42,729 nucleotides of DNA, taken from Acidobacteriota bacterium. GTDB lineage: Bacteria > Acidobacteriota > Vicinamibacteria > Vicinamibacterales > Vicinamibacteraceae. The first letter of the stretch is position 1; every line of letters starts with the position of its first letter. The notes beneath the pieces were generated by a model. The model had not been told where the DNA came from. It saw only the letters and a program-made list of their open reading frames with translations, and searched no databases. Made by a program: the position numbers and the translations under genes. Positions 12,524 through 42,557 of this stretch are shown here, one piece after another. Location of the stretch: the NCBI GenBank assembly GCA_020845575.1, contig JADLFL010000043.1, positions 1 to 42,729 of the forward strand, in the 5' to 3' direction.

Positions 12524-12580
12524 GCGTCTCCTCGAACGAGGACGCAGCACGGGAGGGTGGCGTTAACGCGGACTCTCTCC

Positions 12581-12622
12581 GGCAACCGCCAACCGGCAAC
12601 CGGCAACCGGCAACCGGCAACC
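12581..12622. repeat. CCGGCAA heptanucleotide array
   Basis: About six GGCAACC units with one variant, between the end of pabBC and the start of the permease gene on the minus strand. Nothing else is seen between 12524 and 12650. Confidence 0.8.
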
Positions 12623-12650: not shown

Positions 12651-12677
12651 GGCCGGGCTCGGAGCGCCGGCGCTACC
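12651..12677 (-). repeat. GTAG-headed hairpin element (REP-like) overlapping the pabBC stop codon
   Basis: On the minus strand GTAG (12676-12673) is followed by a GC-rich palindrome. The TAG of the head (12675-12673) is the stop codon of pabBC. One base in each arm differs from the consensus (CGCCGGCGCTC). Confidence 0.7.
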
Positions 12678-14562
12678 ACCCAGCGAGAGGTTCCGCCTCG
12701 ATCCACTCGCGGAGGCTGTTGACGAGCCAGAGGCGGGTGGCACGCTGCATGTCGTCGACGTGGACGATACGTTCGGTCACCTCGCCGCTGGCGAGCAGGG
12801 TGGCGCGGAAGATGCCCGGCAACAGACCGCACGACACGGGCGGCGTCACCCGCGCGCCATCGATCTCGACGATGAGGTTCGCGATGGTGGACTCGGTGAG
12901 CTCGCCACGCGCGTTCCAGAGGAGGACATCGTCGGCGTCTGGTGCCGCGGCTCGAGCGCGCTCGTAGACCTCCCGGCACGTCGTCTTGTTGAACAGGAGC
13001 GGACTACGCGTGTCGATGGGCGAACCAGCAAGCGCCACGCGCCACATGCGGGCGTCCGGCGTGAACGGCGACACCGTCGTGCGAATACGCCCCTCTCGCG
13101 ATGCCACGAGCCTGACGCGCCACGTGCCATCCCGGTGTTCGCGCGCAACAGCATCCAGCGCAACATCGAGCGCCGCACGTTCGACCGGCCAACCGAACAA
13201 CGCGGCTGAATCGAGCAGCCGACGCACGTGACCCTCGCGACGCACGATCGCGCCCGCGTCCGATCGCATCGTCTCCAGGAGTTCGGCCTCGGCAGGAACG
13301 GCAGCCGGACGGACGACGCGCGCCTTGGCGAGACACTCGGCCCATTCGTCGGCCGCGTCCGAGTCCGACGTGATCCCCGCGCCGACGCTGAACGTCGCGC
13401 GCTGCGTCAGACGATCGAGCACCGCCGTGCGAATCGGCACGCTCGCCATCAGATCCCCGCCTGGCTTCAGCAGGCAGATCGCGCCCGTATAGATGCCGCG
13501 TGGCGCGATTTCGAGGTCCGCGATGATCTGCATGGTGCGCACCTTGGGCGCACCGGTCACCGACCCGCACGGGAACACCGCGGAGAGGAGCGCCCACAGA
13601 TCGGTGCCGCCGCTCACACGCGCGTCGACGCGCGACGTCATCTGCCATACCGTCGGGTAGCGCTCGATCGCGCAGAGATCCGATACGCGCACCGAGCCCG
13701 GCTGCGCGAGCCGTCCGAGGTCGTTGCGCAGCAGATCGACGATCATCACGTTCTCGGCGCGCGCCTTGTCGCTCGCCTGCAGCGCGTCGGCCAGCGCCAC
13801 GTCTTCGGCGAGCCAGCGCCCGCGTCGTGTGGTGCCCTTCATCGGCCGCGTGCGCACGTCACCACCAGTGCGTTCGATGAAGAGCTCCGGCGACAGGCTG
13901 ATCACCACCGCGGCGCCCATGTCGATGCACGCCGCGAAGGGCACGCGCGCCTCGCGCGCGCACGCCGCGAACCACGGCCACGGATCGTGCGGGAATGAGG
14001 CGTCCAGCGGGAACGTGTAGTTGACCTGATACGTGTCGCCGGCGGTGATGTGCGCGAGGATGCGCGCGATGTCGGCGTCGAATCGTGTCTCGTCGAGCCG
14101 CGGCATCCAGTCGACGGCGCCTACCGGGGACCGGGCACCGGGCATCGGGCACCGGGCACCGGGAATCGGGACGGAGATACCGGGCACCGGCGACCTGGCG
14201 TCGGGTGCCGGCAGCGGACACCAGGCGCTCACATCAGCGGCGTCGAGGGGCGCGTCGTAGGCGGCCGCCCAGGCCAGCGGCACGCTCGCGCGGCGTGTTC
14301 CCGCTGGATCCGGCGTGCGCACGACGAGTGCGGGATCGAACGCGGGCGCCGACTCATACGCGAGCAGCAGCACGCCCCACTGCCCGGCCCGCGTCCGGCC
14401 GTCGATCCAGTCGACGAGGCGGCGCACCTCGTCGAGGTTCCGGGCCTCCTCGATGGCCAGCGGCCTGTCGAACGCCGCGCGCCATCCGTCCTCCGCCAGT
14501 CCGGCACCAAAGCAGGCGCGCCCAGCCTTCCGCACGGCGCCCACGATACATCGAGCGGCCAC
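12673..14562 (-). CDS. pabBC: Aminodeoxychorismate synthase component I fused to aminodeoxychorismate lyase
   Basis: The 629-residue fusion makes p-aminobenzoate for folate. The PabB part (about 1-415) turns chorismate plus ammonia into aminodeoxychorismate; its chorismate-binding motifs are RPMKGTTRRG, ENVMIVDLLRNDLGR, SVTGAPK and FSVGAGI. The PabC part (about 423-629) is a fold-type IV PLP lyase that releases pyruvate, with the lysine in LLFNKTT and the GELTESTIANL and VSCGLLPG motifs. No pabA glutaminase gene is adjacent. Residues about 119-148 are an in-frame run of a heptanucleotide repeat (see the repeat at 14123) placed between the N-terminal segment and the chorismate-binding core. 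The GTG at 14562 is chosen by homology; upstream starts would add an unconserved tail. The stop codon comes from a REP-like element. Confidence 0.9.
   Translation of the reverse strand: MAARCIVGAVRKAGRACFGAGLAEDGWRAAFDRPLAIEEARNLDEVRRLVDWIDGRTRAGQWGVLLLAYESAPAFDPALVVRTPDPAGTRRASVPLAWAAAYDAPLDAADVSAWCPLPAPDARSPVPGISVPIPGARCPMPGARSPVGAVDWMPRLDETRFDADIARILAHITAGDTYQVNYTFPLDASFPHDPWPWFAACAREARVPFAACIDMGAAVVISLSPELFIERTGGDVRTRPMKGTTRRGRWLAEDVALADALQASDKARAENVMIVDLLRNDLGRLAQPGSVRVSDLCAIERYPTVWQMTSRVDARVSGGTDLWALLSAVFPCGSVTGAPKVRTMQIIADLEIAPRGIYTGAICLLKPGGDLMASVPIRTAVLDRLTQRATFSVGAGITSDSDAADEWAECLAKARVVRPAAVPAEAELLETMRSDAGAIVRREGHVRRLLDSAALFGWPVERAALDVALDAVAREHRDGTWRVRLVASREGRIRTTVSPFTPDARMWRVALAGSPIDTRSPLLFNKTTCREVYERARAAAPDADDVLLWNARGELTESTIANLIVEIDGARVTPPVSCGLLPGIFRATLLASGEVTERIVHVDDMQRATRLWLVNSLREWIEAEPLAGW
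14123..14189 (-). repeat. GGTGCCC heptanucleotide array inside the pabBC coding region
   Basis: On the coding strand about nine or ten units of GGTGCCC with variants (GATTCCC, GATGCCC, GGTCCCC) run without breaking the frame. Because 3 x 7 nt gives 7 codons, the translation has a 7-residue period: ARSPVPG, ISVPIPG, ARCPMPG, ARSPVGA. Confidence 0.85.
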
Positions 14563-14654
14563 CGGTGATTCGTCTCGACGGGCCGGCCAAGCCAGTCTGC
14601 ATAACCTACGAATCACCAGACAGAGCACGAATCGATGGACAGTCGCCCCAACAA

Positions 14655-14679
14655 CATCACTTTGTTGTTTAAAGTGATG
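14655..14679. promoter_or_regulatory. Perfect 9-bp inverted repeat between pabBC and amtB (candidate operator)
   Basis: CATCACTTT (14655-14663) and AAAGTGATG (14671-14679) are perfect complements around a 7-nt AT-rich spacer. The dyad lies in the 197-bp divergent gap, about 80 nt before amtB and about 95 nt before pabBC. It is followed neither by a T-run nor by a gene end, so an operator is likelier than a terminator. The rest of the gap shows nothing recognisable; a sigma-54 site was looked for and not found. Confidence 0.5.
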
Positions 14680-14759
14680 GCCAAACATTGATCGTTCCGC
14701 ACATTCGACGTACGCTCTGTGCTGCTTTGCTTCGCAGCCCTGCTGCATCTGGAGGTTCC

Positions 14760-17368: not shown

Positions 17369-18026
17369 CCGACTGTCTCTCCGTCATCGTGATGTTCCGG
17401 AGGTCGGCGGTGGTGCGCCAGCTCGCGATGCCGAGGGGACGGCAGGCCAGCATCTCGATTCGCACGTCCACGTCGCGGCCGGCCAGCTTCGCGTCGGCAA
17501 CGACCACATCGTCGATGCTCCCCTGCAGACGATCGGGCGTCACGTCCACGGCGATGCGATACCAGCGCTTGTCGTCCAGGTGCATGGCACGACTGGTGTC
17601 GTTCTCCGAGGCATCGAGACCGTCTAGATTCGAGAAGCCCACCACGGTGCCGCCCCAGCCACCCACCACGAACGTGCAGTGGTTGCGGCCGACGGGTACC
17701 GTGACGGCGCAGAAGAAATCGGTGCCGTCCACGCGCATGGCGTCCATCTCGATGCGGAAACTCGGCCCCGGAAGCGCCCCGGTCCACACGATGCCCGTCA
17801 GGTCGTTGCCACGTTCGAGGCGAATCGCACCGTCCACGACCGACACCGCGCCCTCGCCGCCGAAGACCACGGACTTCCAGGCACCGAGAGACGCACCGTC
17901 GAACAACGACACGGATGTGGCAGCCGATGTGGCCGGCGGCTGCAACAGACACGGGCTGACGCCGAGCAGAGCGAGCGCCTGACGACGGGACAGAGACGAT
18001 GGGCGGGTGTGCATGCGATGAAACAC
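17364..18026 (-). CDS. Secreted DUF1080 (3-keto-disaccharide hydrolase-type) domain protein
   Basis: The protein of about 220 residues has a Tat-like N-terminus (SLSRRQALALLGVSPC, then an alanine-rich cut region), so it is probably exported folded. The rest is one concanavalin-like jelly-roll domain that opens with VSLFDGASLGAWKS and includes GGWGGTVVGFSNL, typical of DUF1080 proteins; related enzymes act on sugars or glycosides. Activity cannot be assigned. The start is uncertain: the GTG at 18026 has GAGGG 5 nt upstream, while the ATG at 18014 is also possible. The TAG stop belongs to a REP-like element. The gene is divergent from the aminotransferase cluster. Confidence 0.75.
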   Translation of the reverse strand: MFHRMHTRPSSLSRRQALALLGVSPCLLQPPATSAATSVSLFDGASLGAWKSVVFGGEGAVSVVDGAIRLERGNDLTGIVWTGALPGPSFRIEMDAMRVDGTDFFCAVTVPVGRNHCTFVVGGWGGTVVGFSNLDGLDASENDTSRAMHLDDKRWYRIAVDVTPDRLQGSIDDVVVADAKLAGRDVDVRIEMLACRPLGIASWRTTADLRNITMTERQSA

Positions 18027-18091
18027 CGTGGCCCTCAAGCCTACAGGAATTGGTCAGGCACCACGGCCATCCGGCTCGTCCGACCGCGATG

Positions 18092-18097
18092 TACAAT
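18092..18097 (+). promoter_or_regulatory. -10 box TACAAT upstream of the aminotransferase cluster
   Basis: GTACAATGCG lies about 90 nt before the chosen ATG (18187), leaving a leader of roughly 80 nt. There is no clear -35 box. It is the only -10-like element in the 160-bp divergent gap. Confidence 0.35.
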
Positions 18098-18186
18098 GCG
18101 CCGGTCTCGACCAGGCACCCAGCCGGTCCGGCTCCACTTGACGCCCGTTGGAGCCACGCGCGCCGCTGGCGATTGGGCGCGTTCCG

Positions 18187-19338
18187 ATGAGCCGCTTCAT
18201 CCCCACCCACAGACCCGCCATCGGCGACCAGGAACTCGCGGCCGTGGCGTGCGTGTTCGACAGCCGGTGGCTCGGCGCCGGCGCCGCGACGGCGGCGTTC
18301 GAGGACGCCCTGCGCGCGCAGCTCGGCGTCCCGCACGTCGTGGCCGTGAGCAGTGGAACGGCCGCGCTGCATCTCGCGCTCGAGGCACTGGCGCTTCCTC
18401 CGGGGAGCGGAGTGCTCGTGCCCTCGCTCACCTTCGTCGCCTCCGTGCAGGCCATCGTGGCGGCGCGGCTCAGGCCGGTGTTCTGCGACGTGGTGGCCGA
18501 CACATTGCAAGTCGATCTGGAGGATTGCGCCACACGCCTGCGCGCTGCCGGACGTGACGGCATCGGCGTTCGTGCCGTCATGCCCGTGCACTTCGGCGGG
18601 ACGAGCTGCGACATCACGCAACTGGTCACCCTGGCCACCGACAACGGCCTGCGCATCGTGGAGGACGCCGCGCACGCCTTCGGCTCGAACCGCAGCGGCC
18701 GGGCGCTCGGAACCATCGGCGATGCCGGCTGCTACAGCTTCGATCCGATCAAGACCATCACGTGCGGAGAAGGCGGGGCCATCGTCACGGCGTCCGATGC
18801 TCTCGCGGCGCGCCTGCGACCGGCGCGCACGCTCGGGATTTCCGCCGACGGCTGGCGGCGCCACACGGGTGCGGCGGCGTGGGCGTACACCGTCGAGTCC
18901 CACGGCTGGCGGGCGCACATGCCCGACATCAACGCCGCCATCGGTCTGACGCAGTTGTCGCGCCTGCCGGACTTCCGCGCACGCCGGCAGGCCATCGTCT
19001 CCCGATACGACAGCGCGCTCGCACGAGTACGTGGACTCACGCCGGTGACACGGCCACATCCGGACGCGTGCCCTTTCACGTACACGGTGCGCGTACACGA
19101 TGGGCGTCGCGACGATCTGATGGCCTGGCTGCGCGCGCGCGACATCGGGACGTCTGTGGAGTACATCCCGAATCACCTGCAGCCGGCCTTTGCGGCGTTT
19201 CGCACGCCGCTGCCCGCCACCGAACAGGTGTTCACCGACATCCTCAGCCTGCCGCTCTACAGCGACCTCGTCGACGAGGACGTCGACCTCGTCGTGAGCG
19301 CGATACACGAGTTCTTCGACGGAGACCGCGTGCCGTGA
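18187..19338 (+). CDS. DegT/DnrJ/EryC1-family sugar aminotransferase
   Basis: The 383-residue PLP enzyme transfers an amino group, usually from glutamate, to a nucleotide-linked keto sugar. Family motifs are SSGTAALHLALEAL (substrate and PLP phosphate loop), EDAAHAFGS (the aspartate that contacts the PLP ring nitrogen) and SFDPIKTITCGEGG with the Schiff-base Lys189. The ATG at 18187 opens on SRFIPTHRPAIGDQE, the usual beginning of the family; an upstream in-frame ATG (18148) would add 13 unconserved residues. The stop overlaps the next start (GTGA), so it is coupled to the acyltransferase, a pairing known from bacillosamine, legionaminic-acid and N-acyl perosamine pathways. Confidence 0.9.
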   Translation: MSRFIPTHRPAIGDQELAAVACVFDSRWLGAGAATAAFEDALRAQLGVPHVVAVSSGTAALHLALEALALPPGSGVLVPSLTFVASVQAIVAARLRPVFCDVVADTLQVDLEDCATRLRAAGRDGIGVRAVMPVHFGGTSCDITQLVTLATDNGLRIVEDAAHAFGSNRSGRALGTIGDAGCYSFDPIKTITCGEGGAIVTASDALAARLRPARTLGISADGWRRHTGAAAWAYTVESHGWRAHMPDINAAIGLTQLSRLPDFRARRQAIVSRYDSALARVRGLTPVTRPHPDACPFTYTVRVHDGRRDDLMAWLRARDIGTSVEYIPNHLQPAFAAFRTPLPATEQVFTDILSLPLYSDLVDEDVDLVVSAIHEFFDGDRVP

Positions 19339-19982
19339 GTACGCCGCAACGACTGCTCGTCCTCGGCACACGCACCTTCGCCGTGGAGGTCGCCGACCTC
19401 GCATCGGACATCGACGGGATCGTCGTCGCGGGCTTTGTCGAGAACATGGAGCGCGACCGCGTCGGCACGAGCCTCGAAGGCCTCCCGATCCACTGGATCG
19501 ACGAGGTTGCGGCACTGGCGCCGACGCACGTCGGTGTCTGCGCACTCAGCACGACGCACCGTCGCCGGTTCGTCGACCAGGCCGCCGCGCTCGGCCTGCG
19601 GTTTGCGACACTCATCCACCCGAGCGCGCGCGTGTCACGCACCGCGCACATCGGCGAGGGCGCGATCGTCAGTGCCGGCGCGATCCTCGGCGCGCACGCG
19701 CGAATCGGTCGTCACGCGATCGTCAACCGTGGCGCGCTCATCGGCCACCACACCGCTGTCGGCGATTGCGCAACACTTGGCCCCGGCGCCAACATCGGCG
19801 GCTGCTGCGACATCGGCGCGTCGAGTTACGTCGGCATCGGCGCCATCGTGCTGGACAAGCTGACCGTCGGGCATCACAGCCTCGTCGGCGCCGGTGCGCT
19901 CGTCACCAAGCCCGTCGCCAACCATGTGCAGGTGATGGGCGTCCCCGCGCGCGTGGTGCGCGAAGGCATCGAGGGCCGCTGA
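19335..19982 (+). CDS. PglD/NeuD-like sugar O/N-acyltransferase
   Basis: This 215-residue protein has a small N-terminal Rossmann-like domain (RLLVLGTRTFAVEVADLA) that in relatives binds the sugar nucleotide, and a C-terminal left-handed beta-helix of hexapeptide repeats (about 100-200) ending in VMGVPARVV. The likely catalytic histidine lies in ALIGHHTAVGD. Relatives move an acetyl or other acyl group from acyl-CoA to the new amino group of a nucleotide sugar. The start is the GTG at 19335, overlapping the aminotransferase stop by 4 nt. The acyl donor is open: the next gene may make an unusual acyl-CoA. Confidence 0.88.
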   Translation: MSTPQRLLVLGTRTFAVEVADLASDIDGIVVAGFVENMERDRVGTSLEGLPIHWIDEVAALAPTHVGVCALSTTHRRRFVDQAAALGLRFATLIHPSARVSRTAHIGEGAIVSAGAILGAHARIGRHAIVNRGALIGHHTAVGDCATLGPGANIGGCCDIGASSYVGIGAIVLDKLTVGHHSLVGAGALVTKPVANHVQVMGVPARVVREGIEGR

Positions 19983-19986
19983 CCCC

Positions 19987-20838
19987 ATGGCTCCGCTGAT
20001 CGTCAATCTCGCGCCGACAGGCATGGTGCCGACGCCGCGCGACAACGAATCGCTTCCGGTGACGCCCGACACGATCGCGCGTGATGCCGCGGCGTGCCGT
20101 GCGCTCGGTGCATCGATCGTCCACCTCCACGCGCGCGACACCGATGGTGTCCCGACGTGGCGCCCTGACATCTTCCGCGACGTGATCATCGCGGTCCGTC
20201 GTGCGGCACCCGACCTCATCGTGTGCGTGTCCACGAGCGGACGGACGTTCGGTGCGTTGGAACAGCGCGCGGCCGTGCTCGACCTCGACGATGAGACCCG
20301 GCCAGACATGGCCTCGCTGACGCTCGGCTCGATGAACTTTCCGACGCAGGCGTCGGTGAACGAGCCGGCGATGATCGAAGCCCTCGCCACGCGCATGCAG
20401 GAACGTGGCATCGTGCCCGAGCTCGAGGTGTTCGACCTCGGGATGCTCGACTACGCACGCTACCTGATCGACAAGGGCGTGCTGCGGCCGCCGTTCTACG
20501 TCAACCTCCTGCTCGGCTCGCGCGGCACGCTGGCGGCTACGCCGCTCAGTCTGGCACTGATGGCGCACGCGGTCCCCGCGGGCGCCACGTGGGCGGCCAC
20601 GGGTATCGGCCGCTTCCAGTTCCCCGTGAACGCGATGGCCATCACGATGGGCGGCCACGTCCGTGTGGGACTGGAAGACAGCCTGTTCATGGATGCCGGC
20701 AAATCGATACCGGCGTCGAATGTCGCGCTGGTGCAGCGACTCGTGGCGCTCGGGCGCGCCGCGGGCAGGGAACCCGCCACACCCGACGAGGCACGCGCCA
20801 TCATCGGCCTGCCGCCACGAACGGCCGGCGGCACGTGA
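19987..20838 (+). CDS. BKACE-family (DUF849) beta-keto acid cleavage enzyme
   Basis: The 283-residue zinc TIM-barrel protein belongs to the family of 3-keto-5-aminohexanoate cleavage enzyme (Kce), which reacts a beta-keto acid with acetyl-CoA to give acetoacetate and a new acyl-CoA. The metal ligands fall at the Kce positions: H46 and H48 in VHLHARD and E230 in HVRVGLEDS; S82, R226 and D231 are also conserved. Residue 14 is valine instead of the glutamate that in Kce holds the substrate amino group, so the natural substrate probably lacks that amine. It starts 4 nt after the acyltransferase stop and overlaps the next gene. It is likely to serve the sugar pathway rather than lysine breakdown. 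Confidence 0.88.
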   Translation: MAPLIVNLAPTGMVPTPRDNESLPVTPDTIARDAAACRALGASIVHLHARDTDGVPTWRPDIFRDVIIAVRRAAPDLIVCVSTSGRTFGALEQRAAVLDLDDETRPDMASLTLGSMNFPTQASVNEPAMIEALATRMQERGIVPELEVFDLGMLDYARYLIDKGVLRPPFYVNLLLGSRGTLAATPLSLALMAHAVPAGATWAATGIGRFQFPVNAMAITMGGHVRVGLEDSLFMDAGKSIPASNVALVQRLVALGRAAGREPATPDEARAIIGLPPRTAGGT

Positions 20839-22217
20839 CACGCGACGGTGTCGGCGGCGCGCCGGTGTGGCGGCGCGTCGTGCGCCACATTCCGGCGATC
20901 CTCGTGACGCTGCTCGTCGCGCTCTACGCCGTCGACGTGCCCTACTGGGACACGTGGGATTGGCTGGACAGACTCTATCCGGACGTCGCACAGGGACCGG
21001 CGACGAGCGACCTCGCCCTGTTCAACGGTCATCGCGTCACCATCCCGCTGGCGATCGACAGGGCGCTCTTCGCGGCGTCGTCGATCGACGTGCTCCCTCG
21101 CATCTGGCTGAAGATCCCCCTGTCGCTCGCCACGCTGTGGCTGCTGGTCCGCCTGCTGCGGCGAACGGCGCCGGCGCCACCCGGAACGCTCGTGCAGTCC
21201 GGTATCGCCGCGTTCGTGTTCACGCTCGCGTACTGGCCGATGTGGATGGACCCACGTCAGTATTCGATACACATCGTGGTGCTCGCACTCGTGGCCGCCG
21301 TCGACATCGTCACGGGGCGCGGCACCGGCACGGCGCGGGCCGCAGCGGCGGCCGGCCTCTGCCTCGTGGCGTCGCTGTCGTACGGACCGGGCCTGTTCAC
21401 GTGGCCGTTCGTGCTGGTCCTGCTCTGGGTACGCGTGCCTCGGCCACCTCCCACCGTCCTCGCGCTCTTGCTTGCCGTGGCCATGACGACAATCGGGCTG
21501 CACCTGGCCGACGCCCGCGGTGCGGCACCGTTTGCGCCGACAGCACCGCCAAGCGTCGAGGCTGTCGTGCATGGCATCGCCGCCGTCGCCGGACTGCCGG
21601 CAGCGCTCGCGTCGCCGTCACTCGGGTATCGCGCAACGCGCGTCATGGGTGTCGTGGGTCTCGCGCTCTTCGCGGCGCTGACGGCGTTCGCCCTGCGACG
21701 CCCCTGGCGCGCGCGGGCCCTGCCCTGGATCGCCATCGGTGGTTGGGCGGCCACCTACGCGGTGGCCGTTGGCCTGGCGCGCGGTGGCCTGGCGCTTCCG
21801 TCGATGCACGAACCGCGATTCGCTTACGGTGGCGCTTTCCTCTGGGTCGCCATCACTGCGTTGTTGCATGTGACGGCCACGGCTGACGCAGCGAACGGTC
21901 AGCCGGTCTCTCGCCGGCGGGCGGGCGCAATGCAGGCGGCCGCGTGCCTCCTTGCCGCGGGGTGCCTGATGGCGAGCGTGTCGCCATTCACGGCGTCAGG
22001 CGGCATCGGTGCCCTGCACGCGCAACTGGTTGCGGGACGCGCGTGCCTGATGCACATCGACACCGCCGAGGACAGCTGCTTGGAACGGCTCTATCCGTCA
22101 GCGGTGCGACTGCGCGCGATTGCCCTGCGCATGGAACGCCGCGGCGCGGCGTTCCTGCCGTCTCCGTCCAGCGAGTCCGGCAACACCAAGCCCGACGAGC
22201 GCGCTCCCGTGCAGTGA
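20835..22217 (+). CDS. Multi-pass membrane protein, possible GT-C-type glycosyltransferase
   Basis: The protein has 460 residues and roughly nine to eleven hydrophobic helices (for example HIPAILVTLLVALYAV at the start). The first external loop has VPYWDTWDWLDRLYPD and, some 25 residues on, LFNGHRVTIPL; acidic residues just after TM1 followed by an N-x-H-R segment recall uncharacterised membrane glycosyltransferases that use polyprenyl-phosphate sugars. This assignment is inference. The GTG start (20835) overlaps the BKACE stop, so it is the fourth gene of the cluster. Its last 120 bp lie antisense to the end of the glycosyltransferase gene on the other strand. Confidence 0.7.
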   Translation: MTRDGVGGAPVWRRVVRHIPAILVTLLVALYAVDVPYWDTWDWLDRLYPDVAQGPATSDLALFNGHRVTIPLAIDRALFAASSIDVLPRIWLKIPLSLATLWLLVRLLRRTAPAPPGTLVQSGIAAFVFTLAYWPMWMDPRQYSIHIVVLALVAAVDIVTGRGTGTARAAAAAGLCLVASLSYGPGLFTWPFVLVLLWVRVPRPPPTVLALLLAVAMTTIGLHLADARGAAPFAPTAPPSVEAVVHGIAAVAGLPAALASPSLGYRATRVMGVVGLALFAALTAFALRRPWRARALPWIAIGGWAATYAVAVGLARGGLALPSMHEPRFAYGGAFLWVAITALLHVTATADAANGQPVSRRRAGAMQAAACLLAAGCLMASVSPFTASGGIGALHAQLVAGRACLMHIDTAEDSCLERLYPSAVRLRAIALRMERRGAAFLPSPSSESGNTKPDERAPVQ

Positions 22218-22988
22218 CAGCAGCACCATGAGTCCACTGATTGGGGGATCGGCCAGGCGGTACCAGCCCGCAGCGGCCGCGAGGAACACCATTCCAACCG
22301 TGAGGCAGCACCACGCCGGAACCGCCGACCATTCCAGCAGGACACGCATCGTCACGCCAATCAAGGCCATCGGCGTGTAGCTGCTGGCACTTGCGCGACC
22401 GGCATGCTCGACGTCCACGTTGGCGGGCGTGCGGGAGGCACGCAGGATCTGTCCGCGTACGAATGGCGATGTGCCGCGATACGCGCACACGCGATCGACC
22501 ACGTCGCGCCGCATCGCCCGGAAGCTGCTCACCGCCAGCCCCGACGGCGCACCGAATACGCCGCGATCGATGGCGCGCATGAGAAGACTGCCTCCCTGCC
22601 GCCACCAGGCATGGCGCGGCCGCTCGAATCGCGCGAAGACCGCGTCGTGCCCCGCACGTATCCGCTCGACGAGGCGCGGAATCGCCTCCGGCGCGTGCTG
22701 CATGTCGTCATCCATGCAGACGACAATCTCGCCGGAACAGGCCCGGAGGCCGACCAGCAGCGCCGCGTGCTGGCCGGCATTGGCATCCAGGCCGATGACG
22801 CGTATCGCTCGATGCCGTCTCGCCGCCGCCTCCAGCACGCGCAGGCTCCCGTCGCGGCTGGCATCGTCGACGACAAGCACCTCGAACGTCTCGCCCATGG
22901 CCTCACAGGCCGCCACGACGCGGTTCAGCGTCTGTCCGACGATCGACGCGCTGTTGTAGACGGGAATGACGATGGAGACTATCGTCAC
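22098..22988 (-). CDS. Glycosyltransferase family 2, polyprenyl-phosphate sugar transferase type (GtrB/ArnC/DPM1-like)
   Basis: The 296-residue protein has a GT-A domain with SIVIPVYNSA at the start, VVDDASRDGS, an N-A-G-Q-H-A-A loop and the metal-binding CMDDDMQH (D93-D95), followed by two C-terminal TM helices (about 220-280). This is the plan of enzymes that load a sugar from a nucleotide donor onto undecaprenyl phosphate. The start is the GTG at 22988 with GAGG 5 nt upstream. The last 25 or so residues are Arg/Gln-rich and unconserved, and are encoded antisense to the neighbouring membrane-protein gene. It fits as the loading enzyme for the cluster at 18.2-22.2 kb. Confidence 0.88.
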   Translation of the reverse strand: MTIVSIVIPVYNSASIVGQTLNRVVAACEAMGETFEVLVVDDASRDGSLRVLEAAARRHRAIRVIGLDANAGQHAALLVGLRACSGEIVVCMDDDMQHAPEAIPRLVERIRAGHDAVFARFERPRHAWWRQGGSLLMRAIDRGVFGAPSGLAVSSFRAMRRDVVDRVCAYRGTSPFVRGQILRASRTPANVDVEHAGRASASSYTPMALIGVTMRVLLEWSAVPAWCCLTVGMVFLAAAAGWYRLADPPISGLMVLLSLHGSALVGLGVAGLAGRRRQERRAAAFHAQGNRAQSHR

Positions 22989-23085
22989 ATGTGCCTCGAG
23001 CAACGCCTGGTGTTCATCCCGGCGGGCCGGTGCGTTGAGGACAATGGACGAGGCACGTTCGCCTCAAGCCTACAGGAGATCGTGC

Positions 23086-23775
23086 GTGAAGAAATTCGTC
23101 ATCGGATGTGCGGTCGCGCTCGTGCTGATGGTCATCGGCGGCAGCGCGGCGGTCTACTACTTCGTCTACAAACCGGCGAAGTCCTTCGTCTCGTCGATGA
23201 CCGAGTTCGGCGCACTCGCCGAGGCCGATGAGAAGGTCGCCAACACCGCCACCTTCACGCCGCCGGAGTCGGACACGCTCACCGAGGCGCAGGTACGGCG
23301 GTTCGCGGCCGTCCAGGAGAGCCTCCACGCGAAGATGGGTGCGCGAGCCACCGAACTCCGCACGAAGTACGAGGCCCTCAGCGCGCGAGGGAAGGATGCC
23401 GGTCTCACCGAAGTCGTCGGGGCCTACAAGGACATCTTCAGCATCGTCGGCGACGCAAAGCGCGCGCAGGTCGACGCGCTCAACTCGCAGCAGTTCTCGC
23501 TCGCCGAGTACGGGTGGGTGAAGGCGCGCGTCTACGAAGCGGCAGGCGTCTCGGTGTCGGGCATCGACTTCAGGGAACTCGCCGGCAAGCTCCAGTCGGG
23601 CGACCTGCAGGCTCTCCAGCAGATGGTGTCGAAAGCCGGCGACGCGGTCGCTGACGCGCCGAAGGTGGAGACGGACATGCCGGAGGTCGGCGTCCCCGAG
23701 GCCAACAAGACACTGGTCGCGCCATACAAGGACAAGATCTCCACCTGGATGATCTACGGCGCGTTCGGACTCTAG
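23086..23775 (+). CDS. Hypothetical single-pass membrane-anchored protein
   Basis: The 229-residue protein begins with KKFVIGCAVALVLMVIGGSAAVYYFVY, a positively charged N-terminus and one TM helix (about 5-27), leaving a mostly helical domain in the periplasm. Heptad-like runs (about 65-120) suggest a helical bundle. The only cysteine is in the TM segment. I do not recognise a family. The GTG start has GGAG at 23075-23078 and is preceded by CCTCAAGCCTACAGGA, which also occurs near 18.04 kb. The next gene is convergent, with a hairpin between. Confidence 0.65.
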   Translation: MKKFVIGCAVALVLMVIGGSAAVYYFVYKPAKSFVSSMTEFGALAEADEKVANTATFTPPESDTLTEAQVRRFAAVQESLHAKMGARATELRTKYEALSARGKDAGLTEVVGAYKDIFSIVGDAKRAQVDALNSQQFSLAEYGWVKARVYEAAGVSVSGIDFRELAGKLQSGDLQALQQMVSKAGDAVADAPKVETDMPEVGVPEANKTLVAPYKDKISTWMIYGAFGL

Positions 23776-28321: not shown

Positions 28322-28412
28322 CGGCAACGGGCAACAGGCAACCGGCAACCGGAAGGCTCCGGCGAGATGGGTATCCCATCCTGTTGCCGGTTGCCCGTTG
28401 CCGGTTGCCGGT
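28322..28412. terminator. Two CCGGCAA arrays in opposite orientation flanking a small palindrome, bidirectional terminator-like
   Basis: Left array 28322-28352 (GGCAACC-type units) and right array 28383-28412 (GGTTGCC units) are inverted copies that can pair over some 25-30 nt. Between them GATGGG-TAT-CCCATC (28366-28380) forms a second small hairpin. The structure fills the gap between the convergent ends of the helicase and peroxiredoxin genes. Confidence 0.6.
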
Positions 28413-34172: not shown

Positions 34173-37100
34173 TCACGGCAGGCGCGTGGCGACCGCGTTG
34201 GTGCCGGCGGCCCAGGCCTGCCCCCCGGCGTCGCTGTACATCGCGCGCTCGACGACAATCGGGACGCCGGCGCTCTCGATGAGCAGACCCACGCGCCGGC
34301 CGCGGGCGTTCGGGAAGAACTGCGGTGCGCCGAGCGCGATGTTGAAGCGACTGTTGGCCGGCACCGTGTACGTCATCGATTCCGGTGCCGCGTCCTCGGC
34401 GAGCATCGTCACGACGATCGTGGCGGCACCGCCCGTCGGGTTGACCACGAGCGCGTAGGTGCTCGTGTTGCGCGGCCCGCCCACTTCTCCCTCGGCGAGT
34501 GCCCACCGCGTGGCTGGCGTCGTGACGCCGCCGCTGTTGTGCGCTTCGCCCCATGTCGCCGACGTGCCCGGCCACCACATCGATCGCTCGACGAGGATGC
34601 CCACGCCGTTGTCCACGATCACGTCAGTGGACAGTGACGCATCGGCCAGGCGGGCGTAGTCGGGATTCTGCGCGATGCGTTCCGCGTCGCGTCCGAGCGC
34701 ATCCACCCATACGGTGGCCCGCGACTCGCCGGACACCTGCTCGCGATGTTCGACGACCGTCCCGTCGCCGAGCAGGAAGCGCAGCCGCACGTCGGCGGCG
34801 TCGCGCGACGGATTCGCGATCAGCACGAAGAGGTCGAAGTACGGCCCCGTCGCTCCCTCGGCGAGCAGCCACCGCTCGGCCGGCGCCGGGAGGCCGACGC
34901 TGTCGTGACCCGCCGTGAACAACTGCCCGTTGCGATCGAGGTACATCGCGCGCTCGGCGATGATCGGTGCCGTCGCGTCGATGCGCGCCGACACCTCCGC
35001 CGACGCGAGGGAATCCCCATCGTCCCAGCGCTCCATGTCCACCCACACCGTATGCCGGGCACCCGGCGCCACCGCGTAGGTTCGCGTGCGGGGCGCGTGT
35101 CCCGCGCGAAGGTACGTGATGGTCGCCTGCGCGGGGACGGTGCCGGGGTTGAGCAGCAGGTAGAACGTGTTGAACCCGCCACCCGTCGCACCTTCGGCGA
35201 AGTACCACGTCGTGCGCGGCGCCTCGGTGGCCGACTCGGCATGACTGCCGTAACCGGAACCATCCCACGACACCGTCCGATCGGCAACAACGAGCGTGTT
35301 GGCCTCGATGGTCGTGGCAAACGCGTCGATCGCGCCAACCGCGGCTCCCACGTCGACGGTGGCCCGCCGTCGCGGCTGGATCGTCACCCAGTGCGCGCGC
35401 GTCGCAACGGCGCCGTTGGCGTCAGGCGGGCTCGCGAATCGCAGTTGTACGTTCGCCACGGTCGTGACGCTCGGGTTCACGAGCGCAATCCGGGTCGAGA
35501 AGAACGCGTTCTGCACCCCTTCGGCGAAATACCGCTGAACGACGCCGCGGGGATGCAGCCCCCGCTGGTACTCCTGCAGATTGGTGAGGCCATCGCCGTC
35601 CGGATCGCCGCCCGGCCCGTCGTTCCCTGTGGCGACCAACGGATTGAGACCCGCGGCAATTTCCCACGCGTCGGGAAGGCCGTCGTTGTCGGAGTCCGTG
35701 GGAGGAGGCGGCGGCGGTGGCGGCGCGGCGGCCTGCGCCACGGTCACGCCAACTCCGCCGATCGTGACGTTCCCTGTGCGCGCGCTCCCGCCGTTGGCCG
35801 CCGCCGTGTACGACACCGTACCCGGTCCCGTTCGTGTCACGGGCCCCGACAGCGTGAGCCATGACGCGCTCGTCGACACCGACCACGTGCAGGCGCTGCC
35901 CGTGTTCACGGTGAACGGCGCGACGGCTCCGCCGCCGTAGCCGACGGCGCGCGTCGCCGGCGTCACGTCGTATGTGCACGCGGGCGGAGCGGCAGACGCC
36001 GGGTAGATGAACCGGAGGCCCGCCAGATCGTCGGGGCCGATCGCCGGCGGGATCGGCGTCGCCGCGTAGCAGCACGACGGATACATGACGTTGGAGTTCG
36101 CGTTGGCCACCGAGCCGTCCGTCGGCGTATGGCCCAACCCGATCGCATGACCGATCTCGTGCTCCAGCACTCGCGCCAGGAATTGCGACTGCCCGAGCGA
36201 CGGCATCTCCGCCTTCGTCGTGAAGATCACGAAGCCGTACGTGATCTTGTAGAACGTCGTCCCGTTGACCGTACGCGTCGTGCCGTTCGAGCACGCCCCG
36301 CCGATCGCGATCACGCCGCTCGTCGTGATGTCGTCGGCGGGATCCTCGTACGTGATGATGCCGCCGCCGGGCGTGGGTGGCGCGCCGCAATCGAGCAGCG
36401 ATGCCGCCGACGCGAGTCGCGTGCCGCCATGCGAGAGCGAGAGCGACGCGCCTGTCGGATTGGTCCACCCCGCCAGCGCTTGCGTGATCTCGGCGTCGCT
36501 GTTGCCGCTCGCCAGCGGCGACGGCGTCAACGTGTTGCGATACCACCGCACCGTCTGGTCGCTGTCGGCCTCGTGCCAGCGCATGGTGCCGAGCAGACGG
36601 AACGTCTCGACGGTCGGCGTGGCTGGCGCGAGCGCGCCAGACGACGACGTGGCGGTCGCGGGCGTCCAGAGGCGCACTGCCGCCGTCCCTCGCACCTGAC
36701 GGACCGCAGCGGCAAAACCGGCCAGCGACCGGGTCGACATGCCGGCGTCGGAGGCAGCGGCCTCCGACTGCTGGACCAGTTGCGTGCCCGTCGCCGAGTC
36801 GCGCACGCCGAACACCGACCGCGCCATGGCCGATGGCCGCCACGCGCCGCCGCGACGCTCGACGAGCGCCAGGATGTCGTCACCGACGATGAACCGCGCC
36901 GCGCCCGGAATGGCGAGCGTGGTGGACCCTATGGTGCCGCCGATCTCCCGGATCTCGATCACGCGGTCCGCGCCACCCGAGTAGTCGTCGACGATGCGGA
37001 TCGACGCGACGGTCTCGATCGCGCCGCTGCCCGCACGCCGTTCCGTACGCACCGCCTCCACGCGGCCGCGCACGATGCGATCGGCGGCCGCAATGGCCTC

Positions 37101-37223
37101 GGCGTCGGTCCGTACCTTCAGCGTCGAGGCGTCGGCAGGACTGGCGAGCGACACGCTCGCGATGCATGTCAGCAGCGTGGCGACACGCACGAGATGGGAA
37201 CGCCGTGGGGGGAGCAAGAACAT
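34173..37223 (-). CDS. Secreted matrixin-type metalloprotease with BACON, calcium-binding and four AEG modules
   Basis: The 1016-residue exported protein has a signal peptide (residues 1 to about 32) and an N-terminal beta domain (about 35-150). The zinc-protease domain follows, with HEIGHAIGLGH (355-365) and a Met-turn SNVMYPS (about 377-383), the matrixin (M10) signature. A BACON domain (about 414-499), a proline run, and a calcium-binding DSDNDGLPD/DPDGDGLTN segment (about 510-563) come next. Four repeats of about 100 residues then follow, each opening with W/Y-x-AEG and most closing with (V/A)ERAMY. It probably cleaves extracellular protein and binds glycan or surface through its modules. 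The ATG at 37223 begins the signal peptide; a Gly-rich extended frame lies upstream. It is divergent from two other AEG proteins. Confidence 0.85.
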   Translation of the reverse strand: MFLLPPRRSHLVRVATLLTCIASVSLASPADASTLKVRTDAEAIAAADRIVRGRVEAVRTERRAGSGAIETVASIRIVDDYSGGADRVIEIREIGGTIGSTTLAIPGAARFIVGDDILALVERRGGAWRPSAMARSVFGVRDSATGTQLVQQSEAAASDAGMSTRSLAGFAAAVRQVRGTAAVRLWTPATATSSSGALAPATPTVETFRLLGTMRWHEADSDQTVRWYRNTLTPSPLASGNSDAEITQALAGWTNPTGASLSLSHGGTRLASAASLLDCGAPPTPGGGIITYEDPADDITTSGVIAIGGACSNGTTRTVNGTTFYKITYGFVIFTTKAEMPSLGQSQFLARVLEHEIGHAIGLGHTPTDGSVANANSNVMYPSCCYAATPIPPAIGPDDLAGLRFIYPASAAPPACTYDVTPATRAVGYGGGAVAPFTVNTGSACTWSVSTSASWLTLSGPVTRTGPGTVSYTAAANGGSARTGNVTIGGVGVTVAQAAAPPPPPPPPTDSDNDGLPDAWEIAAGLNPLVATGNDGPGGDPDGDGLTNLQEYQRGLHPRGVVQRYFAEGVQNAFFSTRIALVNPSVTTVANVQLRFASPPDANGAVATRAHWVTIQPRRRATVDVGAAVGAIDAFATTIEANTLVVADRTVSWDGSGYGSHAESATEAPRTTWYFAEGATGGGFNTFYLLLNPGTVPAQATITYLRAGHAPRTRTYAVAPGARHTVWVDMERWDDGDSLASAEVSARIDATAPIIAERAMYLDRNGQLFTAGHDSVGLPAPAERWLLAEGATGPYFDLFVLIANPSRDAADVRLRFLLGDGTVVEHREQVSGESRATVWVDALGRDAERIAQNPDYARLADASLSTDVIVDNGVGILVERSMWWPGTSATWGEAHNSGGVTTPATRWALAEGEVGGPRNTSTYALVVNPTGGAATIVVTMLAEDAAPESMTYTVPANSRFNIALGAPQFFPNARGRRVGLLIESAGVPIVVERAMYSDAGGQAWAAGTNAVATRLP

Positions 37224-37372
37224 GCCGCCCCCCCGCGTTGCAACTCGGCTGCCGTGCAAGCGACACGGTGCGCGTAGCCCGAATCGGCCGGTGCGTGCCC
37301 GCACACGACATCACGACGAGCCGCCAATGACGCTTTCGTATCCCGAATCACGAAACTGACGGCGTCTGCTGT

Positions 37373-37488
37373 GCCGGTCTTCGAACAACCCCTGCAATTG
37401 TTTCCAAGTAAATCGTCGGGATGGGTTTTTGTTTCGACGTATTTATACTGGCGGGGTTCGCCCGGCTTCCGATGGACGGAAGACCGGC
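37373..37488. promoter_or_regulatory. Distant perfect inverted repeat and leader hairpin between divergent AEG genes
   Basis: GCCGGTCTTC (37373-37382) and GAAGACCGGC (37479-37488) are perfect complements 96 bp apart. The right arm also pairs locally with CCGGCTTCC, giving a leader hairpin just before the GGAGG of the next gene. A TATACT at 37444-37449 could be the -10 box for the plus-strand gene; no good -35 box is present. Confidence 0.4.
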
Positions 37489-37504
37489 GCTGGAGGCTTC
37501 CTGC

Positions 37505-40045
37505 ATGACCTGCATCCGCCGGGTGGCCCTGACGGCCCTCATCCTTCTCACGTCCGCGTCGTACGCCGCCGCGCAAGGTGCATCCACGTGGTTGCTCGCC
37601 GAAGGCGCCAACAACGCCACCTTCGCGCAGGAAATCCTCGTGGGCAACCCCGGCGCGCAGGCGTTGAAAGTGACGGTGACGCTACTGCCCCAGTCCGACG
37701 CGCTGCTCACCTGGGAATCCAGGACGTTCGACCTCGCCGGGACCTCGCGTCTCACCGTACGCCTCGGGCCCGACTTCGGCCTGAACGGCAGTGCCTCCGC
37801 ACGCGTCACGGCCGTCCTCGCCAGCGACAACAGCACGCCGGCCGACATCGTCGTCGAGCGGACGATGTACTTCCAGAGCGTGGGTCAGCAGGGGTCTCAC
37901 AACGCGAGCGGCGTGACGCAGGCGCAACTCGCGTCCAAGTGGACCCTGGCCGAAGGCTCCGGCGGGATGTTCGAGACGTTCATCCTCGTGGGGAACCCGA
38001 ACGGCACGCCGACCACCGTGAAGGCCACGTACCTGACCGGCACCGGTGGGGTGTTCGAGACCACGCAGACCGCACCGGCGAACGGCCGCGTGACCTTCTA
38101 CCCGAAGGGCGAACACGCCGGCCTGATGAACGCCGACTTCTCCACCGAGATCGAATCGCTCACCGGCGGGAACCTCGTGGTGGCCGAACGCGCGATGTAC
38201 TTCGACGGCTTCCTCAGCGGCCACGACGCCATCGGCGTGACCAGTCCGAGCACCACGTGGCTCTTCGCGGAAGGCTTCACCGGCGGTAACGCGGAGACGG
38301 CGTTCGAGACGTACCTGCTCCTGGTCAACACCAACGCGACGCCAACGGACGCGACGGTGGATTTCCTCCTCGACAGCGGCGAAGTCGTCAGCCGGACGTA
38401 CACGCTCGCTCCACGACAGCGCTTCAACGTGTGGGTGGATCACGAGGGCCGCACGTACGACGCGCGCCTCAATGGCGCGGCGTTCGGCATGCGCGTGACG
38501 TCCACGCAGCCCATCGTCGCCGAGCGCGCGATGTACTGGGGCACCCCGTCTGCGAGCGATCCCACGGTCCCCACGGTCCCCTGGCGCGAAGGGCACGCAG
38601 CCGCCGGCGTCGCGGCAGGCAATGCCCGATGGGCGTTCGCCGAAGGCCAGCAGGGCCGGTTCGGCGCCGCCGCGACGGGTTTCGAGACGTTCTTCCTGCT
38701 CGCCAACCCAACCGCCACGCCGATCACGGTACGGGCGACGTTCATGCGCGAGGACGGCAAGGGCATCGTGCGCACCGTCTGCCTGGCGGCCAACGCGCGT
38801 ACCAACATCTGGACCGCGGTCTACAGCGAGCTGGCGGGGCGACGATTCGCGACGTTCCTCGAGTCGGTGGCCAGCGCCGATATCTCGTGCCCGTCCTCTG
38901 CCGGTACGCCGTTCGTAGCCGAACGCGCCGTCTATTCGGGCCCGTCGTTCCTGGCCGGTCACGTCAACGGCGGGACGCCCTGGACGGGAACCATCGCCAC
39001 GCCGCCCGTGGCCCCCGCGTTCGCCATCGCCAACGTGTCGCCGTCGAGCGGACGCCTCGGTGGCGGGCAGACGATCACCATCACGGGCGCGGGGTTCCAG
39101 TCCGGCGCGAAGGTCTACTTCGACAACCCGGCGTGGACCGGCGACAGGAACGCCAACACCCACACGGCCGCCGTCGACCAGGCCACCGACGTGGTGGTCT
39201 CCTCCGATGGCGCGACCATCACGGCCAAGACGCCTCCGCGCGGTTTCTACACCGGCTACCAGACGGCCGGGCCGGTGACCGTACGCGTCGTGAACCCCGG
39301 CAACGAGAGTACGACGCTCCCCAATGGCTACACGTTCAAGCTGAACGTGCTCGCGTTCGGCGATGACTACGTCTACGGCTCCACGTCTGGCGGCCGCGCG
39401 GCCACACCGTTCCCGGCCAGCCTCCAGAACCGCCTGCGCGCCTACCAGAAGGACCTGCTGAATGTGTCGACGGGTGCGCCAACGGGAACCAGGGTGCTGC
39501 AGTTCGGCGAGTACGTCACGGTGACCAACGCCGGCGTGGTCGGCGAGTGCGCCTCGGCGACAGGCGGCGGGTGCCTCGCAACTGCCGGCGTCGCACGGTT
39601 CCCGGCGCTGGCCGATGCAGCCGCGAGCGCGGACAAGTACGACGCCGTCGTGTTCGTGGAAGGCGTCAATGACATCCGTGCCGGTAGGGTTGCGGGCAGC
39701 GTGGCGTTCGCCTACCGCGACATGGTGGCCCGGGCGCGCGACAGGAAGATCGTCATCGTCATGACCAAGTTCGAGGGGAACGGCCTCGGGATCGGCGGGC
39801 TCTCGGACGGACAACTCAAGGAGCTCGGCGACGCGCTCTGGGGCGTCACGGAAGACACGTCGCTCAACGTCGAGATCTACAGACAGTCGCTGTTCAATTT
39901 CGAAACGTCAGGCAGTTCCCCCACGCAGAGTGGATACGACCGCATGTCGCAGCTCATTTTCGAGAAGGTGGCGCGCGAGTTCCCGCTCCAGCCGTGCGAC
40001 GCGCGCAACGACAAGCCCGGCAAGGGTTGCCCGCGTAACCCGTAA
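37505..40045 (+). CDS. Secreted AEG-module protein with IPT/TIG and degenerate SGNH-hydrolase domain
   Basis: The 846-residue exported protein has a signal peptide (1-24, ending ASYAAAQ). Four AEG modules begin at about 29, 146, 252 and 376 (W-x-x-AEG ... VERTMYF/VAERAMYF), each about 105-125 residues. An IPT/TIG-like Ig domain follows (about 505-612: NVSPSSGRLGGGQTITITGAGF), then a C-terminal SGNH fold (about 613-830). In that domain the nucleophile motif GDS is GDD (619-621), and the D-x-x-H dyad before PTQSGY is replaced by Ser residues (SGSSPTQSGY); only the block-III VND remains. It is therefore probably not a hydrolase. ATG 37505 has GGAGG 8 nt upstream. The next gene is a close paralogue 3-6 nt away. 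Confidence 0.85.
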   Translation: MTCIRRVALTALILLTSASYAAAQGASTWLLAEGANNATFAQEILVGNPGAQALKVTVTLLPQSDALLTWESRTFDLAGTSRLTVRLGPDFGLNGSASARVTAVLASDNSTPADIVVERTMYFQSVGQQGSHNASGVTQAQLASKWTLAEGSGGMFETFILVGNPNGTPTTVKATYLTGTGGVFETTQTAPANGRVTFYPKGEHAGLMNADFSTEIESLTGGNLVVAERAMYFDGFLSGHDAIGVTSPSTTWLFAEGFTGGNAETAFETYLLLVNTNATPTDATVDFLLDSGEVVSRTYTLAPRQRFNVWVDHEGRTYDARLNGAAFGMRVTSTQPIVAERAMYWGTPSASDPTVPTVPWREGHAAAGVAAGNARWAFAEGQQGRFGAAATGFETFFLLANPTATPITVRATFMREDGKGIVRTVCLAANARTNIWTAVYSELAGRRFATFLESVASADISCPSSAGTPFVAERAVYSGPSFLAGHVNGGTPWTGTIATPPVAPAFAIANVSPSSGRLGGGQTITITGAGFQSGAKVYFDNPAWTGDRNANTHTAAVDQATDVVVSSDGATITAKTPPRGFYTGYQTAGPVTVRVVNPGNESTTLPNGYTFKLNVLAFGDDYVYGSTSGGRAATPFPASLQNRLRAYQKDLLNVSTGAPTGTRVLQFGEYVTVTNAGVVGECASATGGGCLATAGVARFPALADAAASADKYDAVVFVEGVNDIRAGRVAGSVAFAYRDMVARARDRKIVIVMTKFEGNGLGIGGLSDGQLKELGDALWGVTEDTSLNVEIYRQSLFNFETSGSSPTQSGYDRMSQLIFEKVAREFPLQPCDARNDKPGKGCPRNP

Positions 40046-40051
40046 GCCGTG

Positions 40052-42487: not shown

Positions 42488-42557
42488 CGGTTGCCGGTTG
42501 CCGGTTGCCGGTTGCCGGTCGTCGGTTGCCGGTTGCCGGTTGCTGATTGCCGGTTCT
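42488..42557. repeat. Long TTGCCGG heptanucleotide array
   Basis: About nine units of GGTTGCC, with variants GGTCGTC and GCTGATT, directly after the stop of the SGNH gene. It is the longest array in the window and has no coding continuation. Confidence 0.85.

Follow-up and report, generated by a model that had tools for sequence, protein, structure and literature searches.

Beta-keto acid cleavage enzymes (BKACEs; DUF849, PF05853) are known mainly from catabolism, such as the fermentation of lysine by Kce. Herein we describe a BKACE gene in a 42,729-nucleotide stretch of DNA from a member of the Vicinamibacteraceae (Acidobacteriota; assembly GCA_020845575.1, contig JADLFL010000043.1, positions 1 to 42,729), hereafter the window, where it is part of an array that also encodes a DegT-type sugar aminotransferase, an N-acyltransferase of the NeuD/PglD type and a membrane protein, next to a GT2 glycosyltransferase. 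The window BKACE has its fold, Zn ligands, Arg226 and Asp231 in common with Kce and the rest of the family, but it belongs to a separate clade (support 99) marked by R86, T112 and N173, scores under the cut-offs of the named members, and has acyltransferases as neighbors or, elsewhere in the clade, as fusion partners. Its neighbor in turn resembles the sugar N-acetyltransferases NeuD, PglD, VioB and PerB in exceeding the TIGR03570 cut-off, in its catalytic histidine and in its DegT partner, and differs from them in R132, G137 and the BKACE partner gene. The layout as a whole resembles the Arn pathway for 4-amino-arabinose on lipid A, with ArnB and ArnC as solved relatives of the aminotransferase and the GT2 and the fold of ArnT for the membrane protein, although the window proteins remain under the curated cut-offs or match by fold only; where ArnA has a formyltransferase domain, the array has an acyl-CoA-type acyltransferase and a BKACE, so that by analogy a CoA-borne acyl group would replace the formyl group. 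A biosynthetic DUF849 protein has been described in BsfD, from the gene cluster for the lumazine synthase inhibitor flavophos; like the window enzyme it has a Phe at a position that is Tyr in two characterized BKACEs, and it differs in a longer loop after strand 3, in its phosphonate diketone product and in that the accessible text describes no acyltransferase partner (PMC12871164).

We propose that in this array the BKACE likely makes a non-acetyl acyl-CoA with which the adjoining acyltransferase acylates a 4-amino-deoxy sugar, a reading that we hold to be probable, if well short of certain. For a wider proposal we see roughly even chances, namely that a cross-phylum, biosynthetic BKACE clade supplies an uncatalogued acyl-CoA to two unrelated N-acyltransferase superfamilies, in some cases within one self-supplying BKACE-GNAT protein, and so labels amino sugars, and perhaps other amines, with an N-acyl group that is probably polar or anionic. 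The initial annotation of the window had pictured such a pathway for this array; the gene pair and its recurrence hold, and the scope proved too narrow, as the same clade also occurs with GNAT acyltransferases and in flavin-related clusters of actinobacteria. Among the titles and abstract openings of the literature matches listed, which cover few subscription papers, we found no BKACE tied to glycan acylation, and the route of surface-sugar decoration is likely undescribed.

Recurrence of the BKACE-acyltransferase pair

A scan of 84,980 species genomes with an alignment of 39 relatives of the window BKACE returned 149 stretches encoding a relative, the best 80 of which were analyzed (loci with L numbers). 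As they were found by a pattern scan for this clade, the 80 loci are enriched for it, and since the gene caller was rough, neighbors were counted from profile matches to the window proteins and their relatives rather than from gene calls. Within 500 bp of the BKACE, a NeuD-type gene was present on the same strand in 35 of the 80 loci and on the opposite strand in two, and in four more loci it was 0.5-3 kb away. Another 19 loci had a GNAT acyltransferase, either fused to the BKACE or at most 500 bp from it; in total, 60 loci had an acyltransferase within 3 kb (a looser rule puts same-strand NeuD at 36 plus 5). Further away than 3 kb, the NeuD and GNAT models gave a single match of at least 30 bits. 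These 60 loci exclude L028 and L073 by a 35% model-coverage rule, the latter having a short hexapeptide protein 9 bp from its BKACE, and include three GNAT loci (L046, L074, L081) with Pfam matches only, weak ones of 21.2-24.6 bits at a cut-off of 20.7. The 41 NeuD-linked loci were spread over 15 named phyla, one of them through an archaeal metagenome-assembled genome that may be mis-binned, plus five rankless loci, and the 19 GNAT-linked loci over 11 named phyla plus one rankless locus. Gaps of a few bases between BKACE and acyltransferase recur in unrelated phyla. The initial annotation had named the lack of a conserved association in other genomes as grounds for giving up its idea; the link instead spans these phyla and extends to fusions.

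In ten BKACE frames selected for their length, a Pfam scan found a GNAT domain in every one, at the N-terminus in six (L066, L071, L075, L076, L084, L085) and at the C-terminus in four (L043, L055, L078, L080). The two domain orders indicate more than one fusion event. Nothing else in our data speaks as strongly for coupling as these proteins, in which a family that makes acyl-CoA is joined to one that uses it. A GNAT profile built on L034 and nine fused domains, which finds those by construction, had no match in four other long frames (L062, L044, L050, L048; scanned with this profile), and the fusion in L065 is called from this profile only.

A second test used 396 Acidobacteriota genomes that were chosen regardless of the pair, with some candidates scored per genome and coordinates matched by eye. 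Nine of the 34 BKACE matches listed, each covering at least 250 of the 274 profile positions, were at most 1.3 kb from a same-strand NeuD match, eight of them within 300 bp and the ninth (G056) at 1268 bp. Among the matches listed for the 396 genomes, fewer than 100 NeuD matches reached the strength of those nine (at least 138 bits), and we estimate from these that by chance far fewer than 1% of BKACE genes would lie so near to one. In the ~1.5-kb flanks of 16 BKACEs outside the clade, no NeuD match was found.

The surroundings of the pair were in part those of glycan synthesis. DegT was present within 3 kb of the BKACE in 20 of the 80 loci, and 12 loci had near the pair a gene of one protein cluster, whose scanned member, from L064, matches PF13524 (glycosyl transferase-like). 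L038 has an RmlB-type gene above cut-off with RmlA-type and cupin-like genes below it, and L057 has a PseB-like dehydratase and a LegC-like aminotransferase, both under cut-off, neighbors that put the pair within pathways for amino sugars. Three other loci (L013, L018, L041) are cassettes that, judged by eye, have few other glycan genes close by. A shared polysaccharide island was considered as the whole cause of the link and rejected, given the fusions and these glycan-poor cassettes. In the Chloroflexota loci L018, L041 and L069 the BKACE is near dnaN- and dnaA-like genes (by eye), likely a replication origin, and in L018 and L041 both NeuD and DegT accompany it. Near three GNAT-linked BKACEs, weak AMP-binding matches under the Pfam cut-off were noted (L034, 3933-5312, - strand; L078, 6562-7938, + strand; L055, 5373-6656, + strand); these proteins could activate an acid or be CapK-like.

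Active sites and ancestry of the two enzymes

The structural model of the window BKACE (pLDDT 92) has 3NO5 as its best Foldseek match, with a TM score of ~0.9 against both 3NO5 and Kce. R226 and D231, which we take to be the catalytic Arg/Asp pair, are kept, as are the Zn ligands H46, H48 and E230, whose positions in BKACEs come from the accessible part of PMC12871164. The equivalog cut-offs are missed for lysine-fermentation Kce (NF052387, 268 bits against 382) and for the 3-oxoadipate BKACE (NF053568, 234.8 bits against 350), and both identities were rejected for this reason. The initial annotation had accepted that a BKACE active only on lysine- or carnitine-type catabolic substrates would speak against its proposal, and these scores appear to answer that concern in part, as far as the lysine-fermentation and 3-oxoadipate families go.

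The active-site letters set the clade apart. All 87 clade rows carry R86, F149, N173, R226 and E230, and 86 of them N7 and T112; among Acidobacteriota BKACEs outside the clade, R86 is present in none of 22 and N173 in two of 21. R86, T112 and N173 are the letters that separate the acyltransferase-coupled clade, R86 being also present in 3NO5, and the active-site letters of the fused BKACEs match those of their NeuD-linked relatives. When 105 BKACEs were placed on a quick tree, the 87 clade members split from 18 others with the support given above, and the NeuD-linked, GNAT-linked and flavin-cluster BKACEs were all nested within the clade. Both the tree and the residue counts exclude L113, a poor match, and six sequences set aside for their length and checked afterwards (L088, L091, L097, L098, L112, L114).

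The best solved relative of the window acyltransferase is VioB (7TXP, 93.9 bits). Its catalytic His138 is conserved in 27 of 27 clade rows and equally in 27 of 27 unlinked rows, this histidine being the base in acyltransferases of this type according to the accessible text of PMC8040287. Six residues ahead of it, R132 is found in 37 of 45 BKACE-linked rows against two of 27 unlinked rows, 24 of which have T or S there; G137, directly before His138, is found in 41 of 45 linked rows, the unlinked ones having D or E in 16 of 27. E36 and N37 occur in 20 and 22 of the 45 linked rows, the commonest unlinked letter there being D. R132 does not mark every BKACE-linked acyltransferase, as eight of the 45 linked rows have other letters, and it was rejected as a signature of the whole group. 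As a guess, R86 of the BKACE and R132 of the acyltransferase may both point to an acyl group whose far end is a carboxylate or otherwise polar.

The partners also share ancestry, and BKACE-linked acyltransferases from many phyla cluster with one another. On a quick tree of 73 acyltransferases, from which copies of the window, L005 and L006 sequences were excluded, the BKACE-linked label changes five times (three of these forced by starred branches) against 22.7 times when shuffled, a contrast that is in part one of sampling, since most unlinked rows were taken from a single class as its top TIGR03570 matches. The window acyltransferase is nearest to the copies of L006, Nitrospinota and Zixiibacteriota, and not to the unlinked ones of its own class. 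BKACE and acyltransferase distances correlate over 45 pairs (r = 0.66, with a maximum of 0.22 in 2000 permutations), a value that takes in shared species history and near-identical pairs uncorrected.

The proposed route and its rivals

By the chemistry of the families, the DegT protein would aminate a 4-keto-6-deoxy nucleotide sugar. The genome encodes elsewhere a dTDP-glucose 4,6-dehydratase (492.5 bits, cut-off 365.1), which makes such a substrate plausible. The best curated models for the DegT protein, PseC (290.2 bits against 423.5) and ArnB (266.8 against 631), both stay under cut-off, its best solved relative is ArnB (1MDO, 231 bits), and from its sequence we infer a C4-type aminotransferase. 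From a beta-keto acid plus acetyl-CoA, the BKACE would form acetoacetate together with an acyl-CoA other than acetyl-CoA, whose acyl group the neighboring acyltransferase would place on the amino group of the 4-amino-deoxy sugar. The GT2 would then transfer the sugar to undecaprenyl phosphate; its best solved relatives are ArnC (9HWJ, 116 bits) and sll0501 (5EKE, 73.8 bits), which we take to be GtrB, and it is under the cut-off of the ArnC equivalog (127.7 bits against 529), with polyprenyl phosphate loading being its predicted role. Finally, the membrane protein would pass the sugar to a surface acceptor. It has no Pfam or NCBIfam family match, its predicted structure has a GT-C fold with ArnT as top Foldseek match (E 0.002), and this fold together with the adjacent GT2 suggests a polyprenyl-linked donor. 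The role in moving a polyprenyl-linked sugar that the initial annotation had given it thus gains backing from the modeled fold and from the ArnC-like sequence of the GT2.

Several observations weigh against this route. No source of the beta-keto acid was seen within the array, and we know of no array gene that belongs to a family making one. Under our counting rule, 20 of the 80 loci are without a NeuD or GNAT acyltransferase, and seven of these 20 form an actinobacterial branch with flavin-cluster-like neighbors (L036, L039, L042, L044, L048, L050, L051), which implies at least one other use for the clade. Conversely, genome G147 (L154 at G147:C25, L155 at G147:C38) has a NeuD gene of the cassette clade with DegT and GT2 and no adjoining BKACE, its sole BKACE match being divergent and on a separate contig. 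R132 chiefly marks one acyltransferase clade and may therefore concern the sugar, not the acyl group. Lastly, Phe149 occupies a position where Tyr is general in BKACEs and conserved in two characterized ones, and where BsfD, with its divergent chemistry, has Phe166 (accessible text of PMC12871164). This last objection is weakened because Phe is likewise found in 3NO5, which passes the NCBIfam cut-off for 3-oxoadipate BKACEs (492.7 bits against 350), and in 13 of the 21 non-clade BKACEs from Acidobacteriota; the residue is too widespread in the family for Phe149 to prove BsfD-like chemistry, and that argument was rejected.

Such chemistry nevertheless has to be weighed. The BKACE might acetylate a beta-keto acid or malonyl amide at its alpha carbon, with acetyl-CoA as donor and loss of CO2; in a variant, malonyl would be put on the amino sugar first, to give an N-acetoacetyl sugar with no acyl-CoA leaving the BKACE. 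The missing beta-keto acid source speaks for this and would be no problem for the variant, because cells always have malonyl-CoA and acetyl-CoA available. Besides the shared Phe, R86 follows strand 3 of the model (78-81) in the region of BsfD Arg91. However, BsfD has, in the accessible text of the same paper, an insertion of ~20 residues after strand 3 (PMC12871164), against nine residues before helix 91-99 in our model, no BsfD entry is among the 50 Foldseek matches listed, the nearest solved structure being 3NO5, and the pocket would have to take in a nucleotide sugar, a bulky substrate for it. We consider this alternative improbable. The BKACE might also act on the sugar or another small pathway molecule by some other reaction of the family, for example hydrolysis or aldol cleavage, with the acyl donor not its product. 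A cis-epoxysuccinate hydrolase is among its matches by sequence and by fold, groups G6 and G7 of the family are called decarboxylating or not BKACE in the accessible part of PMC4922564, and the active-site letters of the clade are its own. Yet the Zn ligands, R226 and D231 are all kept, and GNAT fusions in both orders, with two unrelated acyltransferase superfamilies as partners, point to a shared acyl-CoA and not to a sugar, which leaves this explanation unlikely in our judgment.

There remains the view that the two genes are chance neighbors, with a catabolic BKACE caught in variable glycan islands and no biochemical tie. Glycan islands often trade genes, and a quarter of the loci, those 20 without the pair, fit this view. 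It is already hard to hold against few-base gaps across unrelated phyla, the BKACE-GNAT fusions, the rate in genomes picked regardless of the pair, the shared ancestry of the linked acyltransferases and the glycan-poor cassettes, and we give it very little credence. On our preferred reading, in which the BKACE feeds the acyltransferase, a clade bound to acyltransferases by gene order and fusion would give the BKACE family a second occupation, in which acyl-CoAs that may be missing from core metabolism are made in few steps and used to vary surface sugars. The fused proteins, as single assay units, give a handle on the identity of the beta-keto acid, and R86/N173 of the BKACE together with NRGxxxGH of the acyltransferase are search marks for the system in other genomes.

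The loci of the actinobacterial branch have neighbors in common, which in L044 are a gene resembling gamma-glutamyltransferase and one for GTP cyclohydrolase II (221.6 bits). A plasmid search returned 627 records, all below 60% identity. On the best match, the Streptomyces camelliae plasmid NZ_CP115301.1 (L153), the neighbors of the clade member are annotated as RosB, RibX, RibA and riboflavin synthase, a roseoflavin-like cluster.

The gene array and other features of the window

The array is listed in Table 1. Its four plus-strand genes form an operon-like run with junctions of -4, +4 and -4 nt: the GTG start of the acyltransferase lies within the DegT stop in a 4-nt overlap, 4 nt separate the acyltransferase from the BKACE, and the BKACE and membrane gene overlap by the four letters GTGA. 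That all three same-strand junctions are within 4 nt is the pattern expected of an operon, and the chaining of the four genes noted at the outset is borne out. The GT2, with its probable start at a GTG at 22988, had been said to meet them tail to tail; the genes are indeed convergent, but rather than merely meeting, the GT2 and membrane genes share 120 nt at their 3' ends. A search of 17900-23300 for sigma-70-type promoter and terminator patterns gave none, a result of little weight in this GC-rich genome.

Table 1 Genes of the array and the convergent glycosyltransferase, with positions in the window
Feature	Position	Strand	Evidence
DegT/DnrJ/EryC1 sugar aminotransferase	18187-19338	+	PF01041, 321 bits
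NeuD/PglD/VioB-type left-handed beta-helix N-acyltransferase	19335-19982	+	TIGR03570 NeuD_NnaD, 166.1 bits, cut-off 160.8
BKACE (DUF849), acyltransferase-coupled clade	19987-20838	+	PF05853, 315.5 bits, cut-off 24.8
Multi-pass membrane protein, GT-C glycosyltransferase fold	20835-22217	+	Predicted structure
GT2 of ArnC/GtrB kind	22098-23003 (frame)	-	PF00535, 108.8 bits

The window BKACE is the one PF05853 match in its source genome. Six other genomes of the family were searched and are without this BKACE, save for one 31-bit fragment, and a close BKACE is present in just three of 193 genomes of the class, its own genome included. Such patchy presence in family and class is expected for genes that travel together from one lineage to another.

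Elsewhere in the window, short tandem arrays of 7-base units such as CCGGTTG or CGGCAAC are mostly intergenic (467-508, 1880-1910, 12579-12622, 28322-28352, 28383-28412 and 42488-42555), and one (14123-14190) lies within a PabB/PabC-like gene (by eye; 12673-14748, - strand), to which it adds a Pro/Gly/Ser-rich stretch. Three large, apparently exported proteins (34173-37304, - strand; 37421-40045 and 40049-42487, + strand) share W(Y/F)FAEG repeats, and two of them have a GDSL-like end (by eye). A partial match to a hexapeptide acyltransferase, of 61 bits, lies at the left end of the stretch (2-295, - strand).

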